Below, in pieces: positions 19,008 through 21,977 of a stretch of DNA of 64,000 bases (position 1 is its first letter; the number at the start of each line of letters is the position of its first letter). The notes beneath the pieces are model-generated. The model searched no databases and had not been told where the DNA came from. It saw only the letters and a list, made by a program, of their open reading frames with translations. The DNA is from Telopea speciosissima (Eukaryota; Streptophyta; Magnoliopsida; Proteales; Proteaceae): contig NC_057924.1 in NCBI RefSeq assembly GCF_018873765.1, positions 11,495,001 to 11,559,000 of the forward strand. Direction: 5' to 3'. The translations under genes were made by a program, and so were the position numbers.

Positions 19008-20316
19008 TTTTTTTGGTAGATAACATGGCTATTCATTTACGCACGCCCAACGCCAATAGAGAAACAGGATACATAAAAAGATACTAAAAAAAGATAGGTA
19101 GCATGACCAACAGAAGGTTTGGGTATACAGAATCCAGACCGACGGAGTGGAAAGCGACCCAGTTTCGCACGCCAAAGACTGAGTCATCCAAAGAAGGGGA
19201 TGGGTGAAAGCCATTGCCCCAGATAAAGTGCTGTCAACACAGCAACTGATAAGCTCATGCACTTTCGTGCCAAAAGAAAAGACCCCAAAAGTGCCGAAAA
19301 GATCTGCGCCATCGTGCCCACGCGAGCCGACACATTGCCACTCCTAGAGGAGCTTCGGTAAACGGTGACTGGGTCACAAGATCTGTATGGCGAGAGGGGT
19401 AACGAAGCCGGCCATTTCCATGGTAACACCAACGCCAGAACCGGCGTAACCTGCAAAACCAGAACCTAAAAAAGAAAAGAAGGTGGTGGAACTCGGCACC
19501 ACCAAATAAAAAAGAAAAACCTTCCGCACCAAACATCTCGGCATTGCTCACAGCTAGCATTGTTGATACTTCCAACAACTGCAGGGACTGAAACTCCATC
19601 AGCATTAGCCATGTCCCCCTGCCTATGAGGCTTCCACCACCTCCATAAATGAAGAACTGTCGAGTACCAACAACGTCGATCGATTGTTCAGCAGATCTGA
19701 TAATAAAATGGGGGGGCCAAGCGCTGGGTTGGGCGAGGTCTTTCATGCTACAAGCAGGGGAATCGACATCACAGTCTCTACCACCGACGTCGCCCCAGAC
19801 GATATCGCTGGCCAGTCCAACGGTTGGTGCCGAAAAATCACCGACGATCGGAACACAGTCTGGACAGTCCCATTGAGAAGCATAGGCAAGTGTTTCAAGG
19901 CGAAAGGGTAGACAACTAAACTGCTAAGGAGTTGCGCAAGTGTTGCAGATGAGCGTATCACTGTCTGCAGGCTGCATCTCGCACAGCAGGCAAATGCCAT
20001 CTTCGTCGCAAGGGAGTTGTCGTTGACACTACGCTTCCACCGTCGACGGAAAGGAGATGGCCACATAGGGCTTGCCATCGTCGGCATCGTCGTCGGCATC
20101 GATGTCAGCATCGCCATCTCCATCATTGGCAGGGCCGATGCTCATGGCGGAAAGGCTGAGGAGGAAATAGAGAAGAAAACACGCACAAGGGCGGAGATAC
20201 AACATGCACGGTGGTGGACGAAAGCAATCACAGCTGCGGCGGAAAGAAGAGAAAAGGGGAAAAAACCCTAATCGCTGGGGCAGAGGAAATAATTTTCATC
20301 GCGATCCAATGTTGTA
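19008..20316 (-). mobile_element. Poly(A)-tailed retroposon, 1.3 kb, carrying a PHD-finger pseudogene
   Basis: The 12-base direct repeat AATTCACCACTC flanks the segment (18996-19007 and 20317-20328). On the minus strand the insert ends in A7 directly against one repeat (CTACCAAAAAAA), as expected for LINE-mediated target-primed insertion. Its other end begins with a leader-like stretch before an ATG at 20145. The body is clearly GC-richer than the flanks. It is either a retroposed, partly processed transcript or an element that captured host sequence. Confidence 0.7.
19255..20145 (-). pseudogene. ORTHRUS/VIM-like PHD-finger pseudogene inside the retroposon
   Basis: Minus-strand translation from the ATG at 20145 gives MSIGPANDGDGDADIDADD..., a stop (20029-20031), then in the same frame LPCDEDGICLLC, DTLICNTCATP, a stop (19924-19926), QFSCLPFRLETLAYASQWD and CPDC (ending 19855). 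This matches the N-terminal PHD finger of plant ORTHRUS/VIM E3 ligases (LPCDGDGVC..C, C..C, TPWHV.CL, LQWECPDC). The C4HC3 ligands survive except the histidine: the Trp-His pair has become stop-Gln. The same frame stays open to 19255 without a similarity I can name, and no RING or SRA domain is seen. ORTHRUS proteins read histone and DNA methylation marks; this copy cannot encode one. Confidence 0.7.
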
Positions 20317-20407
20317 AATTCACCACTCATGTCAACCAAAAAAGGTTGGGGTGGTATTTTGAAGTGCCACATCAATACTTTCTTTCCCCAATTCCCCCAC
20401 GAATTTT

Positions 20408-20550
20408 ATCACCTCCAATTCCCTCCAATCCCTCACATAGGAGCAAAATGACCAACCCTCATTGGGTAGTGTGTTCAGACAGCGGATAAGGTGGTCATTT
20501 CCCCTCCTATGTGAGGAATTGAAGGAAATTAGAGCAGGCGGAGGTGATAA
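20408..20550. repeat. Inverted repeat inside the second MITE shell
   Basis: Arms contain CCTCACATAGGAGCAAAATG and CATTTCCCCTCCTATGTGAG, together with ATCACCTCC and GGAGGTGAT at the outer edges. It would form a hairpin of about 140 bases. Confidence 0.7.
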
Positions 20551-20605
20551 CGATTCATTCTCCCACCCCACCTAAATCCCAACTCCCAGTCAAACAAACG
20601 ACTCC

Positions 20606-20671
20606 TAGAGATTCGTTTCTACACTTGATCTTAGCCAAAAGGTCGAGAATGGTCTTAGAGATTCGTTTCTA
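20606..20671 (-). pseudogene. Retroposed 5' fragment of U2 snRNA between 16-bp direct repeats
   Basis: TAGAGATTCGTTTCTA occurs perfectly at 20606-20621 and 20656-20671. The 34 bases between them (20622-20655), read on the minus strand, match the first 34 nt of U2 spliceosomal RNA, including the near-invariant TTTTGGCTAAGATCAAGTG, with 3 mismatches by my alignment from memory of U2. The match starts at U2 nucleotide 1 and stops next to the branch-point-pairing region. It lacks the rest of U2 and any snRNA promoter (no USE or TATA at the right place), so it is a fragment, not a gene. Confidence 0.8.
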
Positions 20672-20854
20672 AACTGCCCAATTAGAGACCCATCTGTTAA
20701 AATTAATAAAAAGGGTACCCTCGTCCCTCATTGACTCTCCCTTTTTTTACTCGCCCTTTTTCTTTTCCAATGAATTTTTCTTTGCCTTTGAATATTCATA
20801 CTCTTTGTGCTTTCTGTGTCCACTCAACCTACCTTCCTCCCATCTTTGTTCCGT

Positions 20855-20856
<2 letters not shown>

Positions 20857-20899
<43 letters not shown>
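20857..20899. repeat. GA microsatellite in the leader of the MGCC gene
   Basis: About 20 GA units about 180 bases before the start codon at 21078. GA/CT tracts in 5' leaders are common in plants and may bind BBR/BPC factors, which is general knowledge rather than shown here. Confidence 0.85.
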
Positions 20900-20901
<2 letters not shown>

Positions 20902-21077
20902 CTGTGAAACTCATAACCAAAGATGAAAGCTTTTCCTTTGGCAGCAAAATTTTACTCCAATTCCGGCCAGTAGAATCACCGGTTGGAACAGAAATTTCCA
21001 TCCAAGAATGCTTCTGGCAATGGTGAAGAACAGCTGAAGCTTTCAGTCTCTGTAGTCTCTTAACAGTCAAACCTCAA

Positions 21078-21977
21078 ATGGGTTGCTGTGTCAGCACAAA
21101 CAAGACTCCTTCGGCGAAAACAGTTGAGGCAGAGGCGAACTCTTATGCCAAAGCAGCAGCAGGAATTAGCAAAGCTCCTCCACCTCCTCCTTTGGAAGAG
21201 GAGACAGTGAAGGAAGTGCTCTCAGAGACTCCTACACCAAAACCCTCTTTCCGTAATGTGGAAACCCAAGAGATTCCTTCGCCCTCTTTCCTCAAGATCG
21301 AAACAGATAAGCGTTCTTCCCCACCTACTCCTCCTCCCTCTTTTCCCATTAAGCTTGAAGAAGCTACCAACATGGGGAAGAAAACAACTTTGACTCCTGA
21401 TCCAGCAGTAGAAGAGATCTCTGAAGTCTCGGACATGTGTAGCTTGAGCGAGAGCTTGTCCACTACAACGATTGGGGAAGGACGCGTTGACGATGGCGAG
21501 GTCCGGCAGAGGGTTGACAGATCTCCGGCTAAGCTCCCCAGGAAACTACTTGTCGGCGGGGAGTTCATCGGAAGGACAGAAAGAAGAGAGAAGAAAACAA
21601 CTTTGTCTCCGGCGAGAAGGTTCGACCAATCGCCTAGTAGGAGAGATGACAACAATGCCATGAAATCATCTCAGGTTCGTCATCATCACAGCACTAGGGA
21701 CATGCGTGGTGCCGGTGCTGCTTATACTAACAGACGACGAATCCCAGATCCAGGTGAGGGTTTGGGGAGGAGATCGAGGTCTCCGGCGCCACGGCACGCT
21801 TTTGGGCGGAGCCCATCAACGAGGGGCGTGAGGTCACCAGGACGAATCCCTGCTTTGGGTCCGGAAAACGGACGGAAACCAGAGGAATCGAAGGTAGACG
21901 AAGGGAATTGCAATTGGCCCACGAACGAGTCCCTCGAGAACCCCCTTGTCTCTTTGGAATGCTTTATCTTTTTGTAG
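21078..21977 (+). CDS. MGCC-motif Ser/Arg/Pro-rich plant protein, predicted N-myristoylated
   Basis: Encodes 299 residues in a single exon from ATG 21078 to TAG 21975-21977. The N-terminus MGCCVSTNK fits N-myristoylation at Gly2 with possible palmitoylation at Cys3 and Cys4, so a membrane-associated location is likely. A proline run (34-38) is followed by an acidic/Ser-rich stretch EEISEVSDMCSLSESLSTTT (about 111-130) and basic SPAR, SPSRR and RSRSPAPR segments (about 175-250). The end NESLENPLVSLECFIFL is, as I recall, conserved in a plant family often labelled serine/arginine repetitive matrix-like; that label reflects composition only. No enzymatic domain is present and the role is unknown. 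The protein is probably intrinsically disordered. The frame is intact and both ends look authentic. Confidence 0.88.
   Translation: MGCCVSTNKTPSAKTVEAEANSYAKAAAGISKAPPPPPLEEETVKEVLSETPTPKPSFRNVETQEIPSPSFLKIETDKRSSPPTPPPSFPIKLEEATNMGKKTTLTPDPAVEEISEVSDMCSLSESLSTTTIGEGRVDDGEVRQRVDRSPAKLPRKLLVGGEFIGRTERREKKTTLSPARRFDQSPSRRDDNNAMKSSQVRHHHSTRDMRGAGAAYTNRRRIPDPGEGLGRRSRSPAPRHAFGRSPSTRGVRSPGRIPALGPENGRKPEESKVDEGNCNWPTNESLENPLVSLECFIFL

Follow-up and report, generated by a model that had tools for sequence, protein, structure and literature searches.

A short U2 snRNA piece between 16-bp repeats in Telopea speciosissima, very probably a tailless retropseudogene made by target-primed reverse transcription

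Tailless retropseudogenes were reportedly described by Schmitz in 2004. Tailless copies of small nuclear RNAs (snRNAs) are known from mammals (PMC5322556, PMC4476161). The first of these studies, Noll 2015 (PMC5322556), names U2 as a tailless source, counts eight U2 cases in Zea mays and states that the copies show target complementarity to their terminal 2-18 nt; the second, Doucet 2015 (PMC4476161), describes human snRNA copies with homology at the 3' junction. Plant L1-clade LINEs, which terminate in poly(A) and presumably recognise their templates in a relaxed manner, have been reviewed (PMC3747384). Dicot L1-like retrocopies have been reported (PMC4838847) and LINE-1 chimeras with other RNAs have been catalogued (PMC13174262). 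In our literature search, conducted mainly at the level of titles and abstracts and largely in non-subscription sources, the eight maize U2 cases of Noll 2015 were the only tailless snRNA copies from a plant to come up.

The window studied here is a stretch of 64,000 nucleotides of the Telopea speciosissima genome (C9:11495001-11559000) and contains a short insert that very probably arose through target-primed reverse transcription as a tailless (3'-truncated) retropseudogene of U2 snRNA. Like the tailless retropseudogenes of PMC5322556, it keeps a near-complete 5' end, is truncated at its 3' end, has no A-tail, is bordered by a target-site duplication and meets a target that is complementary to U2 at the break, whereas the TT/WAAAAWW targets described there are not followed in this genome. 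The human 3'-truncated snRNA pseudogenes presented in PMC4476161 share with the insertions described below the truncation, the duplication and the extra homology at the 3' junction, but differ in a cleavage consensus like TTTT/A, which is unseen in our seven cases. Locally, the evidence is strong that the insertion is an ordinary one that belongs to a known class, and we propose no function for the copy. Taken with similar loci, it extends the record of tailless U2 insertions beyond mammals by a small set backed by controls, and neutral insertions of this sort could be used as presence/absence markers between related plants.

Sequence, flanks and ends of the insert

The insert occupies 20622..20655 on the minus strand, where it reads AGACCATTCTCGACCTTTTGGCTAAGATCAAGTG and corresponds to U2 nt 1 (or 3) to 34, with three differences from U2 at nt 2, 6 and 13. 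It is enclosed by two copies of the plus-strand 16-mer TAGAGATTCGTTTCTA, neither assigned a strand, which are spaced 50 bp apart and identical at 16/16 positions: the copy on the U2 3' side lies at 20606..20621 and the copy on the U2 5' side at 20656..20671. Read along the minus strand, the order is left target, TAGAAACGAATCTCTA, AGACCATTCTCGACCTTTTGGCTAAGATCAAGTG, TAGAAACGAATCTCTA and right target. An earlier note on this DNA, made from the letters of the window, had described 34 nt of the U2 5' end between perfect 16-bp repeats; this arrangement is real, and its flanks score above all of the mispaired-flank controls described below. The U2 model (RF00004) matched the insert at 34.1 bits (E 0.0119) in the whole-genome search, under the cut-off of 46, and Rfam at gathering score gave no match across the whole window.

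At the 5' end of U2, the 16-bp repeat is followed by AGA in the left copy (insert side) and by GGA in the right copy (target side), and a repeat tool lengthened the match between the flanks to 23 bases, with 91% identity. To judge from these letters, the duplication may be 19 bp long with one difference, the cDNA ending at U2 nt 3; nt 2 would then be a target base, which would account for the mismatch at that position. The note had placed the start at U2 nt 1, and of this the U2 5' region holds while the exact nucleotide is not secure, given AGA/GGA past the repeat and a possible start at nt 3. At the 3' end, the sense triplet TAG (20619..20621, minus strand), with which the duplication begins, is also U2 nt 35-37, so that the insert may end anywhere from nt 34 to 37; the proposed end in the branch-site recognition region is upheld, with the break placeable across that interval. 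This triplet is the probable priming site. In agreement with the same note, no A-tail was found at the window insert, where the duplication directly abuts U2 nt 34-37. The exactness of the duplication (0/16 differences) beside 3/34 differences in the insert is odd, and weighs against target-primed insertion, unless nt 2 derives from the target or copying errors occurred. U2 is the only template found within the duplication at the window insert.

U2 pieces across the genome and their flanking duplications

The surveyed genome comprised 822.9 Mb in 1287 contigs. The 21-nt core CCTTTTGGCTAAGATCAAGTG was found at 23 sites with at most one mismatch in 823 Mb, the window site with none, and its reversed control at 0 sites; a 24-nt core (U2 nt 6-29) gave 42 sites at up to three mismatches against one for the reversed control. 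RF00004 gave 37 matches, 21 of them over the cut-off, among the 46 scored of 37427 candidates. Merging left 45 distinct U2 sites, and nine of these were removed by hand as repeats of counted loci (L089, L090, L091, L092, L100, L101 and L102 with L031; L030 with L025; L080 with L083). The remaining 36 were divided into 21 short and 15 long sites, a long site being one with a match past nt 48 or one assigned by hand (L027 and L042). Five copies found by RF00004 only and anchored by hand (L054, L057, L103, L107 and L108) were added, giving 41 sites. Ten further copies found by the U2 model were left outside this set on the grounds that they were near full length, had no readable U2 5' start or were masked (L040, L044, L046, L048, L049, L050, L051, L060, L105 and L106). 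All U2 copy counts are lower bounds, because some U2 5' stretches are masked. The pairs L080/L083 and L025/L030 are U2-like pieces with common flanks, that is, U2 fragments inside small repeat families. A covariance search for U1 placed all 42 scored matches over the cut-off (133-162 nt; 42 scored of 15591 candidates), and no short U1 copy was present among those 42; comparison with the U2 model is unfair, since short U1 pieces may fail at the first look.

Flanking duplications were then evaluated against controls in which left and right flanks were mispaired, 420 in the free and flush tests and 1640 in a wider test that covered all 41 sites and allowed the right copy to begin up to 75 nt in. 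In the free search, nine of the 21 short sites scored at least 10 (0.25 expected from the 420 controls) and five scored at least 12, a level reached by no control. In the flush geometry five of 21 scored at least 10, while no control of the 420 rose above 8. The wider test gave eight of 41 sites at 10 or more (0.23 expected), namely seven simple tailless insertions, the window among them, and the compound locus L031. The earlier note had proposed to search the genome for the same 34-nt fragment with other flanking duplications; several similar copies are present. The window duplication outscored all 420 controls in both the free and the flush test and all 1640 in the wider test.

Support for the individual loci was uneven. 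In the wider test, none of the 1640 controls reached the window, L031, L054 or L057; one reached L014, seven each L024 and L085, and nine L021, so that some of the seven are attained by controls, a point against target-primed insertion as the explanation of the set. Counting in the same direction, 16 of the 21 short copies scored below 8 in the flush test. In the free search, three of these 16 (L022, L029 and L031) showed a duplication of different geometry and the remaining 13 no convincing one; these 13 may be old, or may not be retrocopies. L087 and L096 were kept as doubtful after the free and wider tests, and L103 (C4:3622173) was not accepted as a clean case because U2 nt 35-46 recur in its left flank; we think that this flank lies behind the highest control scores of the wider test. 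The recurring segment lies immediately upstream of a longer piece of the U2 5' end, either as a U2-U2 join or as a coincidence at the target.

Junctions, template and alternative explanations

The seven simple insertions differ in where U2 breaks off and in how far the target matches the next U2 bases at the junction, which we term the 3' overlap. The break falls after U2 nt 34 at the window (duplication 16, overlap 3 nt), after nt 31 at L014 (C9:51897946; duplication 16 with one difference, overlap 4 nt), after nt 29 at L024 (C3:70127331; duplication 14 with one difference, overlap 3 nt), after nt 32 at L085 (C7:5381352; duplication 17 with two differences, overlap 0 nt), after nt 39 at L021 (C1:25866288; duplication 10 exact, or 17 including eight bases common with U2 nt 3-10; overlap 1 nt), after nt 59 at L054 (C3:38523767; duplication 14, overlap 4 nt) and after nt 46 at L057 (C7:18936570; duplication 21 with one difference, overlap 3 nt). 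The apparent U2 starts, as read from the sequences, are nt 3 at L085, L021 and L057, nt 1 at L014, and nt 1 after one extra base at L054; this last copy also lacks ten bases close to the 5' end of U2. Retroposition of a 5' piece of U2 with a LINE-like duplication, as originally proposed for the window, is well supported by the window together with these six similar loci.

An overlap of at least 3 nt was found at five of the seven junctions; swapped junctions had a mean of 0.36, with 0/42 at 3 nt or more, and an overlap of 18 nt in all has a chance of 4e-7 to 8e-5 when the probability of a base match is taken as 0.25 to 0.35. Overlaps so far above those of swapped junctions favour priming inside the U2 RNA, with a breakdown fragment not needed, although the overlaps of 0 and 1 nt at L085 and L021 depart from this pattern and weigh against it. 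A further property of the sites speaks against target-primed insertion. The canonical TT/AAAA target occurs in none of the seven, only the window having TT before the junction (TT/TAGAAA, a loose fit). The fold of the isolated 75-nt U2 5' end may point the same way: nt 31, 32, 34-36, 39 and 46 are paired there and nt 29 and 59 unpaired, leaving five of the seven breaks outside unpaired bases, although pairing in the U2 particle may differ. In our judgement the L1-type cleavage site characterises therian L1 without defining the class, since Noll 2015 includes the maize cases in that class (PMC5322556).

Under target-primed insertion, a LINE-encoded endonuclease would nick the plus strand of the window target after ...CGTTTCTA, and the exposed CTA-3' end would pair with UAG, nt 35-37 of U2 RNA, within its branch-site recognition segment. 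The LINE reverse transcriptase would then copy U2 beginning at nt 34 and ending at nt 3 or 1, and a cut of the second strand 16-19 bp away, followed by repair, would duplicate the target. LINE-type machinery is the most likely agent of the window insertion, while the exact route, from intact U2 or from a fragment, is likely but not proved. Domains of the zf-RVT family, which we take to mark plant LINEs, scored over the cut-off in all 150 of the candidates scored (from 14907 first-look candidates), and 0/14 control genomes matched.

The same target-primed insertion could have used as template a U2 breakdown product ending at about nt 34-37, with little or no pairing to the target; this is a variant whose probability overlaps that of priming within U2, and taken by itself it seems unlikely. 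Five of the seven simple breaks fall after nt 29-39, and a nick after ...CGTTT would put the RNA end exactly at nt 37, both as such a template would have it. Two breaks, however, lie further along, after nt 46 and nt 59, the 3' overlaps clearly exceed chance, and Noll 2015 (PMC5322556) did not find truncated U2 RNAs fitting the breakpoints in human small-RNA libraries. The breakdown route of the earlier note is possible and not required, the target/U2 overlap of at least 3 nt at most junctions fitting internal priming on uncut U2. Its other route, template switching, would here mean that copying moved to U2 from a different RNA, of which little or nothing was kept. We judge this very improbable for the window: no foreign base stands between U2 and the 3'-side duplication there or at the other simple sites, and with no second template at the 3' end the route is unnecessary. 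It finds support at L031, where U2 nt 1-34, a repeat 3' end and an A-rich tail share one 17-bp duplication, and for which it is one of two readings; that locus also allows two nested insertions.

Chance similarity or an ordinary tandem repeat can be practically dismissed, as 0/420 controls in the free and flush tests and 0/1640 in the wider test reach the window score, and the two copies of TAGAGATTCGTTTCTA are the only ones in the repeat search of 20100-21200; over these 1.1 kb, the tandem repeat named in the note as a refuting outcome was not borne out. In plants, short stretches of filler DNA bordered by duplications may arise, and the insert could be filler copied at the DNA level from a U2 gene during double-strand-break repair, its repeat arising from staggered-end fill-in. 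In favour of this origin, two U2 pieces, L105 (C7:34263929) and L106 (C8:26242356), begin mid-gene at about nt 26 and lack a flanking duplication, their best scores being 6 and 5. We nevertheless give this explanation little credence, since all seven simple copies start no more than about 3 nt from the 5' end of U2, which fits an RNA template. The weight of this evidence is limited: the search patterns lay in U2 nt 6-34 and the flush geometry demanded a start close to nt 1, so that most pieces beginning elsewhere would have escaped. Target-primed reverse transcription of U2 RNA thus remains our preferred explanation.

Compound insertions and the surroundings of the window insert

At L031 (C11:53215648), a 17-bp duplication encloses U2 nt 1-34, then a stretch with GTTTGTGTGATTACACTTTCATAAA and an A-rich end. 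Eight copies of this locus were seen (with L089-L092 and L100-L102) in repeated surroundings, the locus having later been multiplied. The 3' 25-mer GTTTGTGTGATTACACTTTCATAAA has 1459 sites in the genome at up to three mismatches, with none for its control. Variant copies of this repeat 3' end stand head to tail in the window on the minus strand (2772-2792 and 2915-2935), and L109 also carries two copies of it, one of them containing AGTCCCACATCGG, which presumably resembles the plant snRNA upstream element. The U2 piece of L031 is thus fused to the 3' terminus of an A-tailed, high-copy repeat that is probably SINE-like. This structure would result if the enzyme changed template from the repeat RNA to U2, or if a U2 copy received another short insertion, the latter being allowed because TGCTAGTT is shared. 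L031 may thereby join two RNAs in one duplication like the LINE template-switch chimeras of, for example, Magnaporthe grisea (PMC2104539), in which respect the window insert, with its single template, differs.

Another arrangement was found at L029 (C9:11681263-11681453), about 166 kb from the window insertion, where an 18/18 duplication surrounds a structure that, read in reverse, consists of antisense U2 followed by TTCCCATAAAAAATAAAAAAG, an A-rich end. By analogy L029 resembles a product of twin priming, and L022 may be similar but more decayed. L031, L029 and perhaps L022 recall the human snRNA-LINE fused and inverted (twin-priming) chimeras described in PMC4476161. We tentatively suggest, with somewhat less than even confidence, that the LINE machinery of this genome has the range of human L1, covering simple tailless copies primed around the U2 branch-site segment, a SINE-like fusion (L031) and inverted joins of the twin-priming kind (L029, perhaps L022). 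If true, priming inside an RNA by short target complementarity would be a general LINE property independent of TTTT/A.

The surroundings of the window insertion were searched against the genome itself with 20500-20780 as query. The 40 scored of 144 candidates comprised the window and 39 further matches, none of which reaches beyond query base 73 (20500-20573). These 40 contain no second copy of 20574-20780 and, the matches being confined to that initial part of the query, no empty paralogous site. The neighbouring ORF at 21078-21977 gave no Pfam match, and a GA microsatellite (20855-20900) lies upstream of it. A MITE-like repeat, its inverted arms at 20413-20443 and 20504-20534, lies next to the insertion and has at least 39 other related places genome-wide.
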